42,040 nt of DNA from the IMG/VR virus record IMGVR_UViG_3300030102_005718, positions 1 through 42,040 of that record; one strand, written 5' to 3'. The notes below the pieces were generated by a model. It did no database searches and was not told the DNA's origin. It was given only the letters and a program-made list of their open reading frames with translations. Position numbers and translations under genes: made by a program. How positions within the stretch are numbered: position 1 is the first letter of the stretch; each line of letters opens with the position of its first letter. Shown piece by piece: positions 31,100 to 42,040 of the stretch. Source of the DNA: a virus.

Positions 31100-32167
31100 A
31101 TGGCCAACACCCTCAGGATCAAGCGCAGAGCAGCGTCAGGGGCCGCAGGGGCGCCGTCATCCTTGGCAGCGGCTGAAATTGCTTTTAACGAAAATTCGGC
31201 CACTAGGACGCTGTTCTATGGGCTAGGTGATGACGGGAGCGGATCTGCCAATAGCATTATCGCGATCGGCGGTGATGGTGCTTTTGCAACGCTGACAACC
31301 GCGCAAACCCTTTCAGGGGACAAAACCTTTACGGGCACGGTTGACCTGAGTTCAGCCACACTTAGTGGCAACACAACTTTTTCAAACGATTTAACAGTTA
31401 CAGGCTCGCTTACCGTCAACGGCAGCACCACAACAATTGACAGTACAACTGTCACTTCAGAAGATAAAAACATTGAGCTGGGCAAGGTAAGCACTCCTAC
31501 AGACTCAACGGCTGATGGTGGTGGAATCACCCTTTTAGGTTCTACAAATCACACGATTACCTGGACGAACTCAACCGACAGCTGGGATTTTTCAGAGCAC
31601 ATCAGCATTGCCTCTGGGAAGGAGTACAAGATTGCAGGGACTAGCGTTCTTTCAGCGTCAACCCTTGGCAGTGGCGTAACAGGGTCAAGCCTCACAAGTG
31701 TTGGAACGATTAGTACTGGTACTTGGCAGGGCTCAACAATTGGGAGAGCCTACGGGGGGACAGGCCTTACAGCCGCCCCATCGAACGGCCAGTTGTTGAT
31801 CGGCAATGGAAGCGGCTACGCGCTTTCGACTCTTACTGCTGGCACCAACGTCACAATCACTGAAGGCAGTGGTTCGATCACGATTGCTGCAGCATCTCCG
31901 ACTGCTGGCAATGGACTTGACGTAAGCGGAACTGAGCTAAGCCTTGATTTAAAAGCAAACGGCGGTTGCGTAATTGAGTCAACTGAGCTTGCAATTGATT
32001 TAGGCGCTAGTTCAATTACTGGAACTCTTGCTGTGGGCGATGGTGGTACGGGCGCAACGAGTTTGCCTAACGGGCTTGTAAAAGCCAACGGCAGTGCTTT
32101 CTCTGCTGCTGTTGATGAGACTGATTTTCTCAGCCCTAACGCAGTGATTGACGGTGGAACTTATTAA
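31100..32167 (+). CDS. Cyanophage-type tail fibre protein
   Basis: 355 residues. The repeated Thr/Ser-rich beta pattern (DLTVTGSLTVNGSTTTID, then EDKNIELGKV, WTNSTDSWDFSEHISIAS) is characteristic of structural proteins of T4-like cyanophages. The end (GDGGTGATSLPNGLVKANGS) matches a trimeric fibre. The last residues (FLSPNAVIDGGTY) resemble the end of the 28742 spike (VNGGDF). Forms part of the adhesion apparatus. Confidence 0.83.
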   Translation: MANTLRIKRRAASGAAGAPSSLAAAEIAFNENSATRTLFYGLGDDGSGSANSIIAIGGDGAFATLTTAQTLSGDKTFTGTVDLSSATLSGNTTFSNDLTVTGSLTVNGSTTTIDSTTVTSEDKNIELGKVSTPTDSTADGGGITLLGSTNHTITWTNSTDSWDFSEHISIASGKEYKIAGTSVLSASTLGSGVTGSSLTSVGTISTGTWQGSTIGRAYGGTGLTAAPSNGQLLIGNGSGYALSTLTAGTNVTITEGSGSITIAAASPTAGNGLDVSGTELSLDLKANGGCVIESTELAIDLGASSITGTLAVGDGGTGATSLPNGLVKANGSAFSAAVDETDFLSPNAVIDGGTY

Positions 32168-32169
32168 AA

Positions 32170-33651
32170 ATGGCAAACACGATCAAGCTAAAGCGCGGTT
32201 CTGGATCTAATCCAACCGCGAGTGATCTAACACAGGGTGAAATCGCTGTCAGGACAGACACCGGGAAACTGTTCACCAAAAAAGATGACAACAGCGTTGT
32301 CGAAATCAGCGGGTCTGGTGGCGGTGGTGCGGTTGACAGCGTCAACAGTCAAACCGGCACGGTGGTTTTAGACGCTGATGACATTTCAGACGCCTCAACA
32401 ACTAACAAGTTCACAACTTCATCAGACATAAGTAAGCTCGCAGGCATTGAATCCAATGCAACAGCGGATCAAACTGCAACTGAAATTAAAACTGCTTACG
32501 AGTCAAACAGTGACACGAACGCATTCACAGACGCCGAAAAGACGAAACTTTCGGGAATCGCGAGCAATGCAACTGTCTACAACGACGCAGCCGTTGACAC
32601 CCACCTAAACACCAGCACGGCATCATCTGGCGAAGTGCTGAGCTACAACGGCAGCGATTACGATTGGGTGGCTCAATCATCAGGCGGCAGCACTGATTTA
32701 AGCTACACAGACGCAACGCGGGTCATCGCTAGCAGCACTGGCACAGACGCCACCCTGCCTTTGATGAGCAGCGGAAATGCTGGCCTTGTCCCTGCTAGCG
32801 GTGGTGGTACGACTAGCTTTTTGCGGGCGGACGGTCAATTTACGGCTATTGCGGCCAGCAACCCAGTTGCTCTGAAATTGCCGATCGCGGCATCTGCAAC
32901 CCTGCCAAATACCAACACAGAAGGCCAGGTTTCCAACCTATTTAACACTTCTGCTGTTTTCAATTCATCCAACTCAGCAAGTTGGTCGTTTGACGCTTCT
33001 TCGATCACAATCCCTGAAGATGGTATTTATTGCGTTTCGATAAATGTGCAGGTTACTTCGACAGGACAAAGAGCGCAAAACTATTTCGGCTTTGCCGTTG
33101 ACGGCACAGCACAGCAGGGCAGGTCGTCACACGCTTATGTAAGAAATTCATCTTCAATTAACGATGCAGGTTGCACACTTACGGAGCTTTTAGATCTAGA
33201 CGCTGGTGACGTGCTAACTGTGATTGGCAGGTCTGAAGGTTCAATTACTACTTCCAGGACTACAGACCCAGTTACCCCTGGATCAATCGAAATTCACAAG
33301 GTAAGCAATACGCAAGGGCCACAGGGGGCACAAGGGGCTGATGGCCCAAGCGATATACCGCAAAACAGTCAAACTAGCGCTTACACATTGGTGGCAGGGG
33401 ATAATGGCAAGCATATAAATACAACTTCCGGCGGAGTTACCGTACCCAGCGGTGTATTTAGTGCAGGCAATATTGTTTCAATCTTCAACGATAGTTCGAG
33501 CGACCAAACAATTACTCAAGCGAGTGGCGTCACTTTGAGGCTTGCGGGTGGTTCTAGTACGGGGAACCGCACCTTGGCGCAATATGGCTTATGCAGTGTT
33601 TTATGTGTGGGCTCAAATGAATTTGTAATTAGTGGTGCAGGTTTAACTTAA
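32170..33651 (+). CDS. Tail fibre with C1q-like and collagen-like parts
   Basis: 493 residues. N-terminus IKLKRGSGSNPTASDLTQGE, a common fibre start that is also echoed at 31100 (MANTLRIKRRA). Middle: SDISKLAGIESNATADQTAT. Around 265-380 lies a C1q/TNF-like jelly roll (WSFDASSITIPEDGIYCVSI). A short collagen-like triplet run GPQGAQGADGP follows, then a beta-rich C-terminal head. Likely a receptor-binding fibre. Confidence 0.83.
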   Translation: MANTIKLKRGSGSNPTASDLTQGEIAVRTDTGKLFTKKDDNSVVEISGSGGGGAVDSVNSQTGTVVLDADDISDASTTNKFTTSSDISKLAGIESNATADQTATEIKTAYESNSDTNAFTDAEKTKLSGIASNATVYNDAAVDTHLNTSTASSGEVLSYNGSDYDWVAQSSGGSTDLSYTDATRVIASSTGTDATLPLMSSGNAGLVPASGGGTTSFLRADGQFTAIAASNPVALKLPIAASATLPNTNTEGQVSNLFNTSAVFNSSNSASWSFDASSITIPEDGIYCVSINVQVTSTGQRAQNYFGFAVDGTAQQGRSSHAYVRNSSSINDAGCTLTELLDLDAGDVLTVIGRSEGSITTSRTTDPVTPGSIEIHKVSNTQGPQGAQGADGPSDIPQNSQTSAYTLVAGDNGKHINTTSGGVTVPSGVFSAGNIVSIFNDSSSDQTITQASGVTLRLAGGSSTGNRTLAQYGLCSVLCVGSNEFVISGAGLT

Positions 33652-34370
33652 TGGGCATACATCAAGCCTTGATTGCTGGTTATCCCCTAACCGTTTCTTC
33701 AAACCCAACATGGAGTTTAGTTGATAGCGATTTTGCTACAGGCGCTAGCTCTAGCACAAGCGTCAGCAATGTTCAAACTGGTGATTTTATCTTTTTTACT
33801 CAATCAACGGATTTTGAGCTTTCAATCTCCCCGCCTACTGGGTTTACGCAAATTTTTGAAGAGACTGATGATAATCCGTCTTTTAACGAGTCTTTCCGCG
33901 TAGCAACCACCAACGAGGGCACAGTGAACGTCACTGCTGACAGTGAATCTGAAGCTTCAGGTTTGATGGTATTTAGATGTTCAACGAGCGCAACAACGCT
34001 GCAGCCGACTACAGGCACAGGAAGCGCGAGTGGACGCGCGGAAGCAGGATCAGGCAGCCCGTCAGTGCCATCATCCAATACTGACAACAACGGAACGGCT
34101 GAAGCATTTTCGCTTTGCGTGTCGAGTGCTTACATCGACGACGACATAATTACATCATGCACAGCGCCTACAGGGCTGACCCTTGCGGGGTTTGCAGGCG
34201 GCGCCAGAGCCGGGTTTTTCGGAAGCACATTGAATAGCTCGCTAATGGTCGGCTATGCAGTTGTTGCTAGTGCTGGCACAACCTCCCCGCCTGGAGCGGG
34301 CAATAGCTGGACGACAAACAGTAATGGAGATTCTTGGCGATCAACTGCTTGGTATATCAGACCCAGTTAA
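33651..34370 (+). CDS. Beta-rich adhesion or fibre-tip protein
   Basis: 239 residues, start overlapping the fibre stop (TAATG). Contains PPTGFTQIFEETDDNP, then VTADSESEASGLMVFRC and SGRAEAGSGSPSVPSS, ending SWRSTAWYIRPS: a jelly-roll-like pattern seen in fibre-associated proteins of environmental phages. Coupling to the fibre gene suggests a tip or chaperone. No exact family. Confidence 0.75.
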   Translation: MGIHQALIAGYPLTVSSNPTWSLVDSDFATGASSSTSVSNVQTGDFIFFTQSTDFELSISPPTGFTQIFEETDDNPSFNESFRVATTNEGTVNVTADSESEASGLMVFRCSTSATTLQPTTGTGSASGRAEAGSGSPSVPSSNTDNNGTAEAFSLCVSSAYIDDDIITSCTAPTGLTLAGFAGGARAGFFGSTLNSSLMVGYAVVASAGTTSPPGAGNSWTTNSNGDSWRSTAWYIRPS

Positions 34371-34437
34371 TAAAACGTCCGTAGCTGAGCCAAGCTAACG
34401 TCTGCGTTTACACTGTCCTTCAGAGCTAAAAATTTTC

Positions 34438-34620
34438 ATGGCTAAGGTGTTTTTTCTGGCGCTGTTGGGCATTGCCTTGAGCCCTGCTGCTCTGTCCCAC
34501 CACAAGTATTTGCAAGCTCAACAAGATGCCATAACAGAAAATGGACACCTTACTACTACCCAAGAGCCAGAAAGCAAGTACGGTAGTCACGGAAAAAACG
34601 TACCCCACGTTCACCAATGA
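34438..34620 (+). CDS. Small exported His-rich protein
   Basis: 60 residues. A classical signal peptide (MAKVFFLALLGIALSPAALS) is followed by a short polar, His-containing chain (HHKYLQAQQDAI and the end HGKNVPHVHQ). It should be exported to the periplasm. Its stop overlaps the next gene (ATGA). The His clusters could bind a metal. Function unknown. Confidence 0.75.
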   Translation: MAKVFFLALLGIALSPAALSHHKYLQAQQDAITENGHLTTTQEPESKYGSHGKNVPHVHQ

Positions 34621-34979
34621 TCAAAAAAATTGTTTTTGGTGCAGCCGCTGGCGCACTTGCCTTGGCTCCCCTCTCTGCAGCAAAGGCTGATGGTTTTTAC
34701 CTGAACCCTGAGTGGAATGGCGCTTGGAGCGGTTCAACCTTTGGCGGCGCTGTCATGGATGCTGGCATCGGCTGGGAAAAAGGTGCCTTCTACATCCAGG
34801 GCGGACCTAGCTGGTTACAGCCACAAGGCGGAGACGTAGAGCTGGGTTTCTCTGCCAAGACTGGTGTTAGTGCTCCTGTATCTGATTCAATTGACGTTTA
34901 TGGCGAGGTTTCGTTCGCCAAATACGAAAACATTGATGCAGGTTATGGCCTGAAGCTTGGCGGCAAAGTCAAGTTCTGA
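34617..34979 (+). CDS. Small outer-membrane beta-barrel-like protein
   Basis: 120 residues. Signal peptide (about 1-24, cut near AKADG), then alternating strands (FYLNPEWNGAWSGSTFGGAV, GAFYIQGGPSWLQP, VYGEVSFAKYENI) and a final LGGKVKF ending in Phe, the usual signal for outer-membrane barrel insertion. Probably an 8-strand porin-like barrel placed in the host envelope. It may alter surface receptors or superinfection, which is inference. A terminator follows. Confidence 0.82.
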   Translation: MIKKIVFGAAAGALALAPLSAAKADGFYLNPEWNGAWSGSTFGGAVMDAGIGWEKGAFYIQGGPSWLQPQGGDVELGFSAKTGVSAPVSDSIDVYGEVSFAKYENIDAGYGLKLGGKVKF

Positions 34980-35014
34980 TTACACTTCAACCGCGGGCCT
35001 GAACACACCCGCAG

Positions 35015-35059
35015 CCTCCCGGTGGGACTCACTCCTCACACCAAGCCGGGAGGTTTTTT
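35015..35059 (+). terminator. Rho-independent terminator
   Basis: Stem CCTCCCGG (35015-35022) with CCGGGAGG (35046-35053), a 23-base loop, then six T residues at 35054-35059 and more T-rich sequence. It follows the beta-barrel gene and probably ends much of the late transcript, leaving the two downstream genes at lower level. Confidence 0.85.
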
Positions 35060-35075
35060 CTTTCACTTTTTAGCT

Positions 35076-35315
35076 ATGCAAGGAATTTTCAACCTGCTTG
35101 GCACTGTTGGATTTGTTTTAGCTGCTGCCAACGCTGCGCTCATTGGCGTTGCAGTAGTCAAAGGCCCAGAGATCATTGAAGAGAACTTGGACAAGATCCA
35201 AGCGCTAATGATCGAAAAGATGTACGAGAGCATGGACGGCGCAGCTGCTGAGGTCGTTCCAGGCGAAGTGAAAAAGCTGGTGCCTGGTGTAACTGGACCT
35301 GCCATTCCGTTCTAG
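35076..35315 (+). CDS. Small membrane protein
   Basis: 79 residues from the ATG at 35076, since the in-frame codons upstream overlap the terminator. A transmembrane helix (FNLLGTVGFVLAAANAALIG) is followed by an amphipathic acidic helix (IIEENLDKIQALMIEKMYES). Similar small proteins occur beside structural genes in T4-like cyanophages. Role unknown, possibly in the virion or lysis. Confidence 0.72.
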   Translation: MQGIFNLLGTVGFVLAAANAALIGVAVVKGPEIIEENLDKIQALMIEKMYESMDGAAAEVVPGEVKKLVPGVTGPAIPF

Positions 35316-35932
35316 TGCCTGAAATTCGCACTATTGGGATCAGCCCAATTCGCCCTTGGAGCGCACAGCCGACCTTGTCGGTGCCCAATGCTCCTCCAGT
35401 GACGGTAAATATTGGCGTGCCAATTATTGACCTACCGGCTTTCGATCCGTTGGATTACAGGGGGGAAGAGGTCGTTATAGACCCTGAGCCTGTTTTGCCC
35501 AGGCCAGAGCCGACTACGCCTCCAGCACCAAAAGTTCCACCTCCAGCTGCGTTTAAGCTTCCCAAGGCGGCTGTTGATCAAGACCCAAGGTGCCCTCCGC
35601 TTAGAGCGAAAGAGGTCGGAACGCTTGTCCAAAATGGTGAAAAAAGAATTTCGGGCTATGAGATCCAAGACGGAAAGTGCGTCGTCTTGTTTGAAGAGAT
35701 TCCATTGCCTGAGCAAGTTATAGCAGCAATACCAACAATCCCGCAGGTCACGACGGTAGGGGTGTCCGCCGTGATTGGCGTTGGAGCGGGGATGTGTACG
35801 CCTGCGTTGCTGCGGATTGTCAAGCCAACGATCAAAAATATCGTTAAAAAGATCCAGGCCGTGGAGGGTAAGACCTTTAAGCGCCTGAGCGTGTTTGAGC
35901 GGCGGAAGGCACAGCGGTCGGCACGGGAATAG
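35315..35932 (+). CDS. Pro-rich cyanophage structural-type protein
   Basis: 205 residues, GTG start overlapping the previous stop (TAGTG). The opening (RTIGISPIRPWSAQPTLS, then APPVTVNIGVPIIDLPAF) is a motif I know from structural proteins of T4-like cyanophages. A Pro-rich linker (PRPEPTTPPAPKVPPPAA), a hydrophobic segment (VTTVGVSAVIGVGAGM) and a basic tail follow. It overlaps the convergent gene at 35877 by 56 bases. Confidence 0.78.
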   Translation: MPEIRTIGISPIRPWSAQPTLSVPNAPPVTVNIGVPIIDLPAFDPLDYRGEEVVIDPEPVLPRPEPTTPPAPKVPPPAAFKLPKAAVDQDPRCPPLRAKEVGTLVQNGEKRISGYEIQDGKCVVLFEEIPLPEQVIAAIPTIPQVTTVGVSAVIGVGAGMCTPALLRIVKPTIKNIVKKIQAVEGKTFKRLSVFERRKAQRSARE

Positions 35933-36707
35933 CGTGACGGTGTGGCAATACCTGCCCAGGCTTGGGTTTAATTACAACGTCAGCGCATACAGCAAAGTAT
36001 GGGGATTTAGGGTGAAACTCGATCCCTTTGAGTTTCAGCTCACCACAGTTTTTGAGGCGAGCTATTTCGTATTCAAGCCGTTTGGTTTCGATCGCTTGAT
36101 TTTGCATACGGATATTTGAGTCCACCATCGCTTTACAGCGCTCTTGGAGACCACCGTCTAAGGGGATTGTGGCTTGGATCGACAAACCTCCAGACCAATT
36201 ATGAGAGTCTTTTTGACCTGTCCGGGAAGGCATGGTGTATAAGATTTTTCCTGGGTTATCGAGTAACCCATCACCATCAATATCAGAAAGATCATATACA
36301 TTGTCAAAAACTGTACCCACATACGGAAGTTGCCAGCTCTTTGATCTGTTGACATAAGGGGTGACTGTAAGTGTTGGGCCTTGGCAGCTGACCCCATTGG
36401 AGTAGTTGTTATTGAACGCAGCGCTTGGAGCGATCATGACTGCCTGATTGGTGACGCTACCAGAGCTTGTTGCGCTTGGAGCGGCAGTGGCTGACACGCC
36501 TCCAATTGTTTCTGCGTTAACTGGAGAAGCTAGAGCTATTGGGAGAAGGTAGAGATAGTGTCTGTAATTTGCTGCACCTCTTGGACTCTTTGGATGGTGG
36601 TGACGTTGCTTAAACCTGGGTTTTTCAGCACCTCCAGGAACTGAAACGCTTCTCCTGGCCGAACAATTGTCCAGTTTGGCTTGTTCTTGGCGTCTAAACC
36701 TGTCCAT
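35877..36707 (-). CDS. Exported cyanophage-type protein with no normal start near its signal peptide
   Basis: The frame is open for 276 codons from the ATG at 36707, but the recognisable protein begins near 36569 with a signal peptide (HYLYLLPIALASPVNA), then SATSSGSVTNQAVMIAP, SCQGPTLTVTPYV, PLDGGLQERCKAM and EYEIARLKNCGELKLKGIEF. I recognise that pattern from T4-like cyanophages. No ATG, GTG or TTG lies in frame between the upstream gene's end and the signal peptide. The 36707 start would give about 50 unrelated basic residues and a 172-base overlap. Frameshift, rare start or internal mutation are all possible. Confidence 0.8.
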   Translation of the reverse strand: MDRFRRQEQAKLDNCSARRSVSVPGGAEKPRFKQRHHHPKSPRGAANYRHYLYLLPIALASPVNAETIGGVSATAAPSATSSGSVTNQAVMIAPSAAFNNNYSNGVSCQGPTLTVTPYVNRSKSWQLPYVGTVFDNVYDLSDIDGDGLLDNPGKILYTMPSRTGQKDSHNWSGGLSIQATIPLDGGLQERCKAMVDSNIRMQNQAIETKRLEYEIARLKNCGELKLKGIEFHPKSPYFAVCADVVIKPKPGQVLPHRHAIPVPTAVPSAAQTRSGA

Positions 36708-36961
36708 GAATTTAAGCTTGTTGAGCCCGGAGAGAGGGATTTGCCGTCATGTTGGATATTTGTCCCAGAAACTGAGTATTCCCAGCCAGTGTTGTAGGAC
36801 TCAGAAACAATAGTTTCTGTGACCTTGCTTGTCGTTTCAGTTCTACTGGTCAAGCTACCAGTCGTGAAATTAGGGACAACAGGCACCCCTGCAGCCTGCT
36901 TGGCAAAGGTGAACCCCTCACCAAGCAAGGCCATGAGAATTAAGAAGGCAAGGCGCATCAA
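36536..36961 (-). CDS. Exported cyanophage-type protein
   Basis: 141 residues, or 140 from the second Met. Signal peptide (MRLAFLILMALLGEGFTFA), then VPNFTTGSLTSRTETTSKV, YSVSGTNIQHDGKS and the end with VQQITDTISTFSQ. I know close patterns from the same block in T4-like cyanophages. Start overlaps the upstream stop. Probably periplasmic or surface; function unknown. Confidence 0.82.
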   Translation of the reverse strand: MMRLAFLILMALLGEGFTFAKQAAGVPVVPNFTTGSLTSRTETTSKVTETIVSESYNTGWEYSVSGTNIQHDGKSLSPGSTSLNSWTGLDAKNKPNWTIVRPGEAFQFLEVLKNPGLSNVTTIQRVQEVQQITDTISTFSQ

Positions 36962-37446
36962 TCGATTGAAAGCTCAGTGACAAATTGACCAATTGCCAAT
37001 GTGTTGCCTCCTCCGGCCTCAACAGTCATCAAACCTGCTGGTGAGATTGTTCCTGCCAGGTCTCCTGCTGTTCCTGCTGTAGTGGATTGCAGGCTGCCAA
37101 AATTTGGTGTTTCGCCTGTTGTAACTGCAGTTGTCGGAACAACGTCTGCTTGTGTATATGACTGGCTGAAGCTAAATGCGTTGCCAGATGTGTCCTGCGT
37201 CACAGCGATGTTGCCTGGGTCGTATATCCCGTCAGTAATAGATCCGGTTGAGATTGTTCCTGCTGTTGTGCCATCGGTGGTTGAAACGCCTGAACCAGAC
37301 ATTGAAAAGCTGCTGCCAATGCGTTCTGCAGTTGTCATCGCTCCACCGACCTGCAATTGGATAGAGCTTTGGATGCGATGGGTGAGGTCAGCTTTTGCTG
37401 CTGGCGCGAGCGCAAAAAACGCAGCTAAAAGGATGAAGCGTTTCAT
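36958..37446 (-). CDS. Exported cyanophage-type protein
   Basis: 162 residues. Signal peptide MKRFILLAAFFALAPAAKAD, then beta-rich Thr/Ser/Gly repeats (HRIQSSIQLQVGGAMTTAE, FSFSQSYTQADVVPTT, GTAGDLAGTISPAGLMTV), ending VTELSID. This is the first of three exported proteins in a row. The same order and patterns occur, from memory, in T4-like cyanophages, where they are called virion or hypothetical proteins. Start overlaps the upstream stop (ATGA). Confidence 0.83.
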   Translation of the reverse strand: MKRFILLAAFFALAPAAKADLTHRIQSSIQLQVGGAMTTAERIGSSFSMSGSGVSTTDGTTAGTISTGSITDGIYDPGNIAVTQDTSGNAFSFSQSYTQADVVPTTAVTTGETPNFGSLQSTTAGTAGDLAGTISPAGLMTVEAGGGNTLAIGQFVTELSID

Positions 37447-37709
37447 TTGATGGCAGTCGTACCGTTACCTGGCATTTTAGGTGGCTGCTTCTTTTGTTGG
37501 CCATTTGCTTTGCGTTCGATGCCAAAACTCGCCATGGCTCCAGTGAGCAAAGAAGCCACGAAAGTATTATCCATTTTCATCTGAGGGAAAATACCTAGAT
37601 AAGAGACTGTTAACAGCGTCGCAGACCAAAACAAGACAGCGCATTTGACGATATCCGCAATTGATACTCCCTCTTTTTCGTGTTCTTGATTTTCTTGTGT
37701 TTCTGGCAT
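37443..37709 (-). CDS. Small membrane protein, holin candidate
   Basis: 88 residues from the ATG at 37709; the longer frame upstream overlaps the divergent gene at 37736. An acidic N-terminus (PETQENQEHEKEG) is followed by two hydrophobic segments (CAVLFWSATLLTVSYLGIF and TFVASLLTGAMASFGI) and a basic tail (ERKANGQQKKQPPK). Two short membrane segments and a charged tail fit a small holin, but it is coupled to exported-protein genes rather than to a lysin. Confidence 0.75.
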   Translation of the reverse strand: MPETQENQEHEKEGVSIADIVKCAVLFWSATLLTVSYLGIFPQMKMDNTFVASLLTGAMASFGIERKANGQQKKQPPKMPGNGTTAIK

Positions 37710-37735
37710 GATGTGATGAGTGCTGAGGTCGAGGC

Positions 37736-37987
37736 ATGATTGAAATATGGGCCGCCGCCGCTGGTGCGTCAATCACTGTTGCTGGTCTCGGCATCACCGG
37801 GCTAAAACAGCAAGGACAGCAAGGAAGAGATTCATTGATAAGGCTGACAACTGCTGTTGAGGGTTTGAGCAGGCAGCTCGACGTGCTTCACACTGACATC
37901 CGCAGCAGGGACCAAGAAGTGTTCGCAAGGCTGTCAGAGCTTGAACAGGCAGTTGCAAGGCTTGAGGGACATAGCAATCGCAACTAG
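37736..37987 (+). CDS. Membrane-anchored coiled-coil protein
   Basis: 83 residues. N-terminal membrane helix (IWAAAAGASITVAGLGIT), then a heptad-patterned coiled coil (RLTTAVEGLSRQLDVLHTDI onward to LEQAVARLEGH). Small proteins of this layout are frequent near lysis-type genes in cyanophages and could act as spanin- or holin-like partners. Divergent from the 37443-37709 gene, with starts 26 bases apart. Confidence 0.78.
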   Translation: MIEIWAAAAGASITVAGLGITGLKQQGQQGRDSLIRLTTAVEGLSRQLDVLHTDIRSRDQEVFARLSELEQAVARLEGHSNRN

Positions 37988-38011
37988 ACTTTTAATAGTT
38001 GATCTAGCCCA

Positions 38012-38182
38012 ATGTTCCTGATCCTCAAACCAATTCTTTTTCGGTTTTTGCGTTCAGAGAGTTTGAAGCGTTTGATTGTGGATTTGGTCAAAGCGTATGC
38101 AAAGCGCTCTGATAACACTGTTGATGATTCTGTCGCAGCATTTTTAGAAGCTAATCTCTTCCCTCCCAGAAGAGTTAGTTGA
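38012..38182 (+). CDS. Small helical protein (56 aa)
   Basis: A short gene found by reading the gap: ATG at 38012, stop at 38180-38182. Reads MFLILKPILFRFLRSESLKR, then DNTVDDSVAAFLEANLF. Hydrophobic amphipathic first half, acidic helical second half. Its stop shares a base with the next start (TGATG). Likely membrane-associated; function unknown. Confidence 0.72.
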   Translation: MFLILKPILFRFLRSESLKRLIVDLVKAYAKRSDNTVDDSVAAFLEANLFPPRRVS

Positions 38183-38328
38183 TGGTTCGCAAGCGCGTCA
38201 TTTTTGCAATTTTGCTTGGGATGATGACGATCCTTTCAGCCATGATGCTCTCTGGGGCTGGCTTGGTTTATTACACAGGTTTTCTTGATGGCAGCAAGGG
38301 CTGTGACACGGCAGGATTGACGCGATGA
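38182..38328 (+). CDS. Small membrane protein (48 aa), lysis candidate
   Basis: A short gene found in the gap: ATG at 38182, stop at 38326-38328. A positive N-terminus (MVRKRVIFAILLGMMTIL) leads into one membrane helix with several Met, then a short polar tail (GFLDGSKGCDTAGLTR). It overlaps both neighbours (TGATG and ATGA) and lies directly before the peptidase, so it is a good candidate for a holin or signal-anchor lysis helper. Confidence 0.72.
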   Translation: MVRKRVIFAILLGMMTILSAMMLSGAGLVYYTGFLDGSKGCDTAGLTR

Positions 38329-39056
38329 CGCCTCGCTTAAAAAACCTGATGGCCCTTGCGTTGCTTCCGTTTTTTGAGTTTTTCCGTGGGACGCCCCATC
38401 AGGCAGCAGCTATTAAAGAGCTAGAGGATTCTTTGCCAGAAGAGTTGTTAGCTGAAGATGCGGCTTGGTTTGAAGCTTGGAAGACAAGCGGCATCGCACA
38501 AAAAGCAATTGTGCCCTATGTTCATCAACTGGATTTCAGATACAAGGGCTATCGAAGATGCTTAGACGCATCAGCGGCAATGCTGGCTCTTATGTACGGC
38601 AAGGTGAAAAGCGCCGAAGAGTATGGGGAGGTACGGAAAAGATTTGGAGACACGATCGACGTGTCGGCCCAAGTAAGGACTCTGAGAGAGCTTGGTCTAC
38701 ACGCTCAATTCAGAAATGATGCTGATGGAGCGTTGGTTGAGGCAGAGATTGCAAGTGGCCGACCAGTTCTGGTGGGGTGGCTGCATAAAGGCAATATGCT
38801 TCGAGGCGAGCCTCCGGTTTGCAGTCAGATCACCTGCGGGCATTGGGGCGTCATTGTCGGCTTCGAGGGGACGGAATCAACAGGCGATGCTCATTGGGTG
38901 ATGCACGACCCAATGGGGGCTCCTGACATTGAGAGAGGAGGGCACCCAAGCCGTTACAACGGCAAAAACGTAAGAGTGCCGCGTAAACCATTTGACTTGC
39001 GTTGGCAGGTTGAAGGGCCTAGCAGCGGTTGGGTGATCCTTGTCGATGACGAATAG
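38325..39056 (+). CDS. C39-like cysteine peptidase, candidate endolysin
   Basis: 243 residues. Hydrophobic start (KNLMALALLPFFEFF) that could anchor or export it. A papain-like C39 fold is indicated by Gln68 (VHQLDF), Cys79 (RRCLDAS), His173 (CGHWGVIVGF) and Asp195 (MHDPMG). I recognise close relatives in T4-like cyanophages, where they are linked to lysis. Start overlaps the 48-residue membrane protein. Whether it cuts peptidoglycan or protein is not shown by sequence. Confidence 0.87.
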   Translation: MTPRLKNLMALALLPFFEFFRGTPHQAAAIKELEDSLPEELLAEDAAWFEAWKTSGIAQKAIVPYVHQLDFRYKGYRRCLDASAAMLALMYGKVKSAEEYGEVRKRFGDTIDVSAQVRTLRELGLHAQFRNDADGALVEAEIASGRPVLVGWLHKGNMLRGEPPVCSQITCGHWGVIVGFEGTESTGDAHWVMHDPMGAPDIERGGHPSRYNGKNVRVPRKPFDLRWQVEGPSSGWVILVDDE

Positions 39057-39058
39057 TT

Positions 39059-39112
39059 GGGGCGTTACGCATGGCTCACGCACCATGAGCTAATTAGCAG
39101 GCCGGACGCCCC
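39059..39112 (+). other. Stem structure after the peptidase gene
   Basis: The 118 bases from 39057 to 39174 hold no convincing gene. An outer stem GGGGCGT / ACGCCCC (39059-39065 with 39106-39112) encloses an inner hairpin GCTCA / TGAGC (39074-39078 with 39086-39090). No T-run follows, so it is not an ordinary terminator. It may stabilise the peptidase mRNA or control the next gene. Confidence 0.4.
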
Positions 39113-39174
39113 TGCAAGCCTGACTGACCTGCCACTGAAGGTAGGAAGCCACAGATTACACACCATTTACAGCG

Positions 39175-39414
39175 ATGCCAGCTTCAAAAGAGTTCAAGCG
39201 GTCAAATTGTTTGATTGTCCGTTACCGCCACCCGCGCGAAGGCCCCCCTAGCTATTTGGTCTGGGAAAAGGACAAGAGCTATATATGTTTGACGCGAGAA
39301 GAGCTGCTAAAGGCTGTGAAATGGCCTAAGTACACCAGCACTGGTGCTGCGTTGCGCCAATGGATCGAAGAAGTTGAGGTGGATATACCGCCAGACCCAG
39401 AGCCAGTGCAATGA
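39175..39414 (+). CDS. Small hypothetical protein
   Basis: 79 residues, ATG at 39175. Contains SNCLIVRYRHPREGPPSYLV, then WEKDKSYICLTREELLKAV and GAALRQWIEEVEVDIPP. A small mixed alpha/beta domain with an acidic Pro-rich end. Its stop overlaps the next start (ATGA). Function unknown. Confidence 0.72.
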   Translation: MPASKEFKRSNCLIVRYRHPREGPPSYLVWEKDKSYICLTREELLKAVKWPKYTSTGAALRQWIEEVEVDIPPDPEPVQ

Positions 39415-39641
39415 ACTTGTATTGGGCCTGGTCATATCTAGTTGCATTTTGGACGACTGTGGTCATGTCTTGTATCCAACCTGCGAACTGGAGTTACTGT
39501 TGGCCGCCTGACTGGCTAATTCATGGGGTACATGATTACATGCGTTCAAGGGCTCCTTACTCCGAGGAGCGCAACATATTGCAATCTTTGGAGCGAACTA
39601 ATGGGCTGGGCGGACTGGATGGTGGTCAAGCAAACCCTTGA
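39411..39641 (+). CDS. Small Trp-rich membrane protein
   Basis: 76 residues. The opening NLYWAWSYLVAFWTTVVM is a Trp-rich membrane helix, possibly an uncleaved anchor. It is followed by CIQPANWSYCWPPDWLIHGV with two Cys and several Trp. The end overlaps the next gene by 41 bases. Coupled to its upstream neighbour. Function unknown. Confidence 0.68.
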   Translation: MNLYWAWSYLVAFWTTVVMSCIQPANWSYCWPPDWLIHGVHDYMRSRAPYSEERNILQSLERTNGLGGLDGGQANP

Positions 39642-39813
39642 AGAAGAGCTGGACCTGGAGCGTCAAATCCGAAGCATCAGCTCTAGCGAAGATCTCCACG
39701 CGCTCCAGCAGCTGTGCGGTGCATTGACCAGGCAAAACTGGCACTATTCAAAGCTCCTTAAGCAGGCTGTGGGGCGTGTGGCTGAGCTGGATGTGAAAAG
39801 TATTTGTGATTAA
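39601..39813 (+). CDS. Helical cyanophage-type protein
   Basis: 70 residues from the ATG at 39601; the longer frame from 39523 is upstream overlap. Reads MGWADWMVVKQTLEEELDLE, then LQQLCGALTRQNWHYSKLLK and AVGRVAELDV. I recognise this small helical protein type from other marine cyanophages, function unknown. Its end overlaps the convergent minus-strand gene by four bases. Confidence 0.75.
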   Translation: MGWADWMVVKQTLEEELDLERQIRSISSSEDLHALQQLCGALTRQNWHYSKLLKQAVGRVAELDVKSICD

Positions 39814-41220: not shown

Positions 41221-42040
41221 TTAGAGTTGTCCCCGTTCTTCGTCGGTGAGTTCAATCTCAACCGCTCCATCCATCAGAGGGGGACAGAGGGGCGTGTCCC
41301 CCACCTCTTGTCCCGTACCAAAAGCTGCACTACCACTGGTATCCGTACCAAAGGGGACAGCCTTCCTACCCTCTCCACACGCGAGAACAGCAAGATAGTG
41401 TTTGGAACGAGAACCTTCTGGGACGTCCGAGACAATCAGGTTTCGGTCTTCTAGGCGTTGGAGCGCTTTCTTGATTGCGGAGGCAGTGCCTGACACAAGG
41501 GAGTCACAGACCAGATCGTTTTTGGTGCGTGTCTCTGGGTAGGCAATCCGCAGTCTGCTGAGGACACGACCAAGAACTGAGGAGGGTGTGGTGTCGTCTG
41601 GATCGACCTCGGGCGTGAAGTCGGCAATGTAGAAATCGAGGTCTTGGTTCTGGCCAAGCACCAGATGCGTCCCAGAGCGTCCAGAACGGCTTTTCTCGAT
41701 TTCGATGAGGCGTTCATGGCTCTGAAGCTTTGGACCCTTGTCCTGGGGGTCTGTGCGCTTGAGAGACCACGTTTCGTCTACAGCATCACGGATGGCTGAG
41801 GTGCCACGGAAGCCACCGTTCTTGTTGGCGTGGTGAATAATCAGGATGGTGGTGGCAGGGAACAGCTCGCCATTGTTTTTGGTGAGCCAGTAAAGGGGCG
41901 TGGCGAAATCAGATTTGTTTTCGTCAAAGCCCCGCCCACCAGAGCAGCCAATCAGGGAGTCGATGACGACCAAGCTGGGCTTGATGCTTTCCACCAGGCG
42001 GATGAACTGGGCATAACGCTGAAGCTGCCAGTCAGTCCTG
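41221..42040 (-). CDS. Prim-Pol type primase / AAA helicase, C-terminal part
   Basis: The right-hand piece of the gene that starts at 1616. Runs from the contig edge to the stop at 41221. It repeats the Walker B segment (LVVIDSL) and continues with a sensor-like strand (TTILIIHHANKNGGFRGTSA), SLKRTDPQDKGP, and a C-terminal winged-helix-like region (AIKKALQRLEDRNLIVSDVP) that may bind DNA. An acidic end follows (IELTDEERGQL). It is in the same frame as the left piece across the overlap. Confidence 0.92.
   Translation of the reverse strand, partial: RTDWQLQRYAQFIRLVESIKPSLVVIDSLIGCSGGRGFDENKSDFATPLYWLTKNNGELFPATTILIIHHANKNGGFRGTSAIRDAVDETWSLKRTDPQDKGPKLQSHERLIEIEKSRSGRSGTHLVLGQNQDLDFYIADFTPEVDPDDTTPSSVLGRVLSRLRIAYPETRTKNDLVCDSLVSGTASAIKKALQRLEDRNLIVSDVPEGSRSKHYLAVLACGEGRKAVPFGTDTSGSAAFGTGQEVGDTPLCPPLMDGAVEIELTDEERGQL
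41840..42040. repeat. Right copy of imperfect terminal overlap
   Basis: Matches 1-201 with 10 substitutions and no gaps. Removing one copy leaves a 41,839-bp circle. See the left copy for the variant positions. Confidence 0.92.

Follow-up and report, generated by a model that had tools for sequence, protein, structure and literature searches.

We describe here a gene cassette at positions 34617-37772 of a 42,040-base genome from an IMG/VR virus record (IMGVR_UViG_3300030102_005718; the whole of this stretch is hereafter called the window), and we propose that it represents an old, host-specific envelope set of marine picocyanophages, joined in this genome to a siphovirus lysis set, whose likeliest use would be the disruption of the outer membrane at lysis. 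We put this forward tentatively, with a little less than even confidence. The first-pass annotation of the window had taken everything from 31100 to 39813 as one block shared with cyanomyoviruses. This description applies well to 34617-37772, does not apply to the fibre gene at 31100 and applies in part to 37736-39813; since the matches of both the fibre and the lysis set lean towards siphoviruses, homology indicates that two units abut here, a pan-cyanophage cassette (34617-37772) and a siphovirus lysis set (37736-39813). Their combined order reads OMP417-568-570><848-650-564-721<>37736-2738-C39.

The window encodes TerL, a portal, an SPP1-type capsid protein, a tape measure, lambda-type tail-tip proteins and the central fibre J, and on account of this capsid and a lambda-type tail with J its genome is that of a cyanosiphovirus. 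The capsid protein matches an unnamed marine single-cell virus at 75% and the cyanosiphoviruses S-2L and KBS-S-2A at 34%. Because the first and last 201 bases (1-201 and 41840-42040) are 95% identical, the genome is probably close to complete, and the imperfection of this terminal repeat suggests assembly from a mixed population. A nucleotide search of the right half of the window against phages gave no match. A search for the sheath family in 12 records of window relatives found none, which is uninformative given that these are fragments; indeed, many of the related contigs used throughout are fragments, and absence of a gene from them is weak evidence.

Families were assigned to the cassette genes via PHROG and Pfam, and the products fall into exported and membrane-bound proteins. 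OMP417 (34617-34979, plus strand; phrog_417), an exported small beta-barrel-like protein, fits the PF24653 Phage_OMP profile over its full length (residues 1-120, 89.1 bits, cut-off 27) and matches 447 annotated phage records. The exported p848 (35877-36707, minus strand; phrog_848, T4-GC 235) matches 423 phage records at 1e-5 and has four invariant cysteines, which is in keeping with an oxidising compartment. The exported and predicted beta-rich p650 (36536-36961, minus strand; phrog_650, T4-GC 236) is distantly related to the likewise exported p564 (36958-37446, minus strand; phrog_564, T4-GC 237, ‘OMP1’), which matches 356 records at up to 64%. Export signals with a cleavage-like AxA are visible in all four, and membrane segments are present in the remaining three: p568 (35076-35315, plus strand; phrog_568) has 79 amino acids and one N-terminal segment; p570 (35315-35932, plus strand; phrog_570, T4-GC 234; 300 annotated phage records) is proline-rich with a C-terminal segment and a basic tail, its topology being putative, and its 3' end overlaps p848 convergently; and p721 (37443-37709, minus strand, possibly beginning at a TTG at 37772; PF20048 DUF6450, phrog_721, T4-GC 218; 438 annotated phage records) has a holin-like layout with one strong and one weaker hydrophobic segment, two peaks being seen in 59 of 71 sequences of the window's clade, the second of them weak. 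Within the phage collection, the organisms matched by the cassette proteins are exclusively marine picocyanophages or unnamed marine or uncultured phages. A literature search for PF19847, PF20048, PF24653 and the T4-GC numbers by name turned up no paper.

The cassette contains a dual-coding overlap of 169 nucleotides (36539-36707, minus strand), in which the first ~56 codons of p848 run out of frame inside p650. The overlap measures 166 nucleotides in the T4-like isolates syn9, P-SSM3, P-RSM1 and S-RIM2, 178 in P-HM2 and 139 in MED4-117. All of the 257 sequences compared have an open p848 frame throughout it, where synonymous shuffling leads one to expect 2-4% per sequence, and this test favours real translation and disfavours the p848 N-terminus as an annotation artefact. 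The variability of third codon positions in the overlap stays high, so that the N-terminus of p848 is only loosely constrained and the position of its start codon unsure.

In cyanomyoviruses such a cassette is not new: Sullivan et al. (2010; PMC3037559) documented one in 15 of 16 genomes as T4-GCs 218, 219, 234, 235 and 237 plus a ‘plasmid stability’ gene. The window holds homologues of 721 (T4-GC 218), 570 (234), 848 (235), 650 (236) and 564 (237) as well as 568, with the same nested 650/848 pair and with 564-650-848 converging on 570, a layout that T4-like isolates continue with 568 and 721; arrangement and order match QB2, SynMITS9220M01, P-SSM7, P-SSM2, syn9, P-RSM1 and S-RIM2. The leading matches of p848 are T4-like Kyanoviridae (~50% identity over 95-100%). 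Thus, the claim that the proteins at 35076-37446 follow a cyanomyovirus pattern is borne out, and best matches are not confined to siphoviruses. There are also differences from the cyanomyovirus version. p721 has shifted to the other side of the block, in front of the 564-650-848 operon, OMP417 has been added in front, a lysis set is attached and the host genome is that of a siphovirus. Moreover, T4-GC219 (phrog_605), present in myoviruses, has no match in the window or in the siphovirus and podovirus groups, and the window cassette is therefore better called a variant of the cyanomyovirus cassette than a member of it.

The same set recurs in other lineages. The window's order recurs, as far as each contig reaches, in about 75 related siphovirus contigs (54-82% in p848). 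A second siphovirus lineage, clade B, represented by the isolate MED4-117 together with 80 contigs related to it, carries a complete cassette in the order 721-564-650-848><570-568, adjoining homologues of 2738 and 39523. In T7-like cyanophages (P-SSP7, 9515-10a, S-SBP1, uvMED fosmids and 80 contigs), 570-721-650-848 lies between tail fibre and TerS and is preceded or followed by 2738; PSSP7_042-046, all ‘hypothetical’, share with the window the content 570-721-650-848-2738 and the nested overlap, and differ from it in that all genes lie on one strand and 564 is missing at that place in the loci examined. Finally, an unclassified lineage with a family-A polymerase (polA), here termed set X, has the full set plus T4-GC219; its placement among T4-like phages was ruled out by this polymerase and a lambda-type exonuclease. 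The earlier view that phages of different tail architecture infecting the same hosts share a cassette of conserved order is upheld, and its reach is wider than had been claimed, as it extends to the T7-like phages.

How the set came to be so distributed is best judged from the trees. In that of p848, a single branch separates off each of siphovirus clade A (96/92), siphovirus clade B (100/100), podoviruses (100/100) and set X (99/97), and T4-like sequences are split by other groups; since each lineage has one clade, the spread between phage families is old. In the p564 tree, clade A occupies two places, one of them with set X and a pair of T4-like phages as neighbours, in line with the two allele lineages of p564 within the window's siphovirus clade, and monophyly of clade A is rejected by the approximately unbiased (AU) test with a p value of 0.0006, which is somewhat post hoc in that the allele classes had been noticed by identity before testing. 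Exchange between lineages is shown for one gene only, p564. For OMP417, 568 and 2738, identity comparison without trees reveals large gaps between relatives. The OMP417 alleles of related siphoviruses fall into two divergent classes: otherwise similar genomes share either 67-92% or 38-50% identity in it, as if whole alleles had been swapped. The movement across families envisaged by the first-pass annotation is thus retained as an old spread together with p564 exchange, and movement in the present is unseen for p848, the most conserved gene of the set.

These findings bear on the proposal of Sullivan et al. (2010; PMC3037559) that the cassette is currently mobile and is moved by the ‘plasmid stability’ protein. 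Its position does vary among the T4-like genomes of that study, and p564 has been exchanged. However, p848 is clade-specific, the gene order is fixed in the siphovirus clade, and podoviruses give no match to the p568 family. The database label ‘plasmid stability’ on phrog_568 proteins has fed the mobility hypothesis in the literature; p568 is a protein with a single transmembrane segment that has no Pfam match, no NCBIfam match near the cut-off and no recognizable partition or toxin-antitoxin domain. Weakened in this way, present-day mobility seems to us very improbable.

A profile scan of bacterial genomes uncovered p564-p650-p848 in three freshwater picocyanobacterial assemblies (L302, 305-2034; L303, 159-2834; L304, 10334-12757). 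Their neighbours, read from translations, are what we take to be core host genes (ndh genes, gltA, hrcA), and the copies are preceded by a bestrophin-like membrane protein (a weak Pfam match below the cut-off) and a small exported protein. The host copies of p650 exceed the cut-off for PF19847 DUF6322. In two of the three assemblies a proline-rich gene converges on p848; the C-terminal 54 residues of the protein it encodes match p570 (E 1.6e-4, probability 51%), making homology to p570 probable, and 721 and 568 had no match in these stretches. Such a locus is seldom encountered: it occurs in 3 of 42 genomes within the genus, in 3 of 399 sampled from the order and in 1 of 386 sampled from the phylum. 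With copies so rare, a host origin of the cassette is not upheld, phage-to-host capture being at least as likely, to judge by these counts.

One rival reading is that OMP417, p848, p650 and p564 let phosphate or inorganic carbon into the infected cell, as a pore or another path of uptake. Several T4-like phages carry the cassette near pstS, psbA or hli, which would suit such a transport aid, as would the bestrophin-like neighbour of the chromosomal copies. On the other hand, the bestrophin link is limited to three related genomes, no transport gene adjoins the cassette in sipho- or podoviruses, and the cassette is also found in phages with few metabolic genes. We regard transport as improbable and rank it below the exclusion model discussed further on. 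Ranked lower again, and carrying only a slim probability, is a role as a virion or adsorption component near the tail fibres. The cassette does lie beside fibre or baseplate genes in podoviruses, in the window's clade and in S-SSM7, but signal peptides are not expected on virion parts that assemble in the cytoplasm, the tails of the carriers are unrelated, and T4-GC 234-237 are still labelled hypothetical in the records examined despite proteomics for S-SM1, S-PM2 and Syn9.

We rank outer-membrane disruption at lysis first because of the position of the cassette in T7-like phages, its holin and endolysin neighbours, the lack of a lipobox protein and a published spanin survey. First, in T7 the order is fibre-17.5 holin-18 TerS-18.5/18.7 spanins-19 TerL, and the cassette of T7-like cyanophages fills the fibre-TerS interval, which in T7 houses the holin, the T7 spanins lying just past TerS. 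Second, in the window the cassette adjoins a holin-like open reading frame (37736-37987, plus strand; 83 amino acids, an N-terminal hydrophobic segment followed by a heptad-like tail), with which the lysis set starts, and a C39-like peptidase (38325-39056, plus strand; PF13529, phrog_10051) that scores 24.6 bits against PF13529 (cut-off 24), has Q68, C79, H173 and D195 in place and is a probable endolysin. Third, a scan that recovers T7 18.7 and lambda Rz1 as controls found no credible lipobox open reading frame in the window, and 20 Prochlorococcus and Synechococcus phages are among the 91 spanin-less phages of a spanin survey (PMC6139136). Further points in favour are that most relatives have two hydrophobic segments in p721, which would make it a possible class II holin (a small protein with two transmembrane segments), weak as the second segment is, and that in siphovirus clade B the cassette borders on the homologues of 2738 and 39523.

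According to the model we favour, p721, p568 and p570 would reside in the inner membrane, and p848, p650 and p564 (and OMP417) would be exported to the periplasm or outer membrane, the two groups assembling into a trans-envelope complex. p721 and/or the 37736 product would act as holin, the C39-like peptidase would then cut the peptidoglycan, and the complex would disrupt the outer membrane, thereby replacing spanins of the Rz/Rz1 type, which these phages seem to lack. The envelope part of the role suggested earlier, host envelope interaction and lysis, agrees with the presence of export signals and membrane segments; the use in lysis is our inference. Likeness to known spanins (Rz/Rz1, T7 18.5/18.7 and the u-spanin gp11 of T1) is one of manner of working: overlapping genes, an inner-membrane and an exported partner, a proline-rich part and a place beside lysis genes. 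Unlike them, the cassette has no lipoprotein signal, no sequence similarity and more components. Neither architecture is matched in the window, as the lipobox of a two-component o-spanin was not found and, of the N-terminal lipobox and C-terminal transmembrane domain of a unimolecular spanin, p570 has only the latter.

Several observations weigh against a function in lysis. T4-like phages usually carry the cassette beside regA/hsp20 or psbA, away from known lysis genes. Freshwater chromosomes keep 564-650-848 and probably 570, which one would hardly expect of genes for a lethal device, although neither 721 nor 568 had a match in those stretches. The window has no lipoprotein and hence no canonical spanin; S-PM2, reported to lack the cassette (PMC3037559), lyses nevertheless, and absence of spanins may mean that none is needed (PMC6139136). 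The AlphaFold models of p848 and p650 are poor (predicted local distance difference test, pLDDT, of 52 and 62), with Foldseek E values not below 0.085 and hence no significant fold match, and sequence searches against solved structures found nothing. A loose likeness of these models to ring or pore strands was set aside.

Also, the allele classes of OMP417 and p564 would equally suit exposed proteins under pressure from hosts or rivals, which leads to the main rival, surface remodelling or superinfection exclusion. Here, the exported proteins and OMP417 would alter the outer membrane so as to block adsorption or injection by rival phages. Exported beta-rich proteins accompanied by an outer-membrane-type protein with sharply different allele classes agree with this, the copies on host-like chromosomes could shield the cell that carries them, and the T4-like cassette lies near replication rather than lysis genes. 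Its location in the fibre-TerS interval of T7-like phages and beside the lysis set in the window does not, and searches of PHROGs, Pfam and NCBIfam revealed no likeness to Imm, Sp or any other exclusion protein. We consider exclusion unlikely, yet the strongest competitor of a lytic function.

A bolder formulation of outer-membrane disruption, which we think doubtful though worth stating, is that the cassette is the long-missing means by which marine picocyanophages disrupt the outer membrane: a spanin replacement of non-canonical kind, free of lipoproteins and with nested genes, common to T4-like, T7-like and siphovirus cyanophages and with a chromosomal form in a few freshwater picocyanobacteria. 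In either form the implications reach beyond this genome. The same six-gene envelope set, including its nested pair, is kept by phages that are unrelated in tail, capsid and replication system, and the confinement of this set, within the phage collection, to phages of marine picocyanobacteria would point to a peculiarity of the host envelope that each phage must solve. The cassette offers a concrete candidate for a spanin replacement, and one amenable to deletion in cultured phages of three morphologies. Collectively, the data also correct two readings, that of a ‘mobile cassette with a plasmid stability gene’ and that of ‘recent movement between families’.

Of the flanking genes, the fibre (31100-32167, plus strand) lies outside the cassette and is mosaic. 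It had been considered T4-like, but its longest and best match is to the siphovirus S-CBS2 (61% over 52%), T4-like phages sharing merely 13-25% of its length in short segments; it occurs in only 13 related contigs, many of them truncated. On the other side, the small membrane proteins and the C39-like peptidase up to 39813 had been assigned to the cyanomyovirus pattern as well. This assignment stands for p721, which belongs to the cassette, and falls for the peptidase: at 44-45% identity to S-EIVl and siphovirus S-CBS1, 37% to podovirus S-CBP2 and 31% to T4-like S-PM2, it is nearer to sipho- and podoviruses, and a cyanomyovirus gene is ruled out. S-CBS1 has homologues of 37736, the peptidase and 39523 in the order of the window, and its lysis region is alike in this respect; it differs in that the stretch examined has no 564, 650, 848 or 570 matches. 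The lysis set further comprises a small basic protein (38012-38182, plus strand; phrog_2738), which also adjoins the cassette in T7-like cyanophages, and three small open reading frames (39175-39414, 39411-39641 and 39523-39813, plus strand) found 3' of the peptidase in many related contigs.

A few minor observations may be added. Cyanophage-like cassettes were also encountered in genomes labelled Nonlabens, Formosa, Euryarchaeota, Lewinella, Chloroflexota and others; because their layout is that of cyanophages, these are probably misbinned or contaminating cyanophage contigs. The C39 homologues of set X phages (L085, L107) and of L279 have lost the catalytic C and H and are, judging from these residues, probably non-enzymatic. 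In S-PM2, a C39 homologue and a putative lysin are direct neighbours (L008, 6001-6696).

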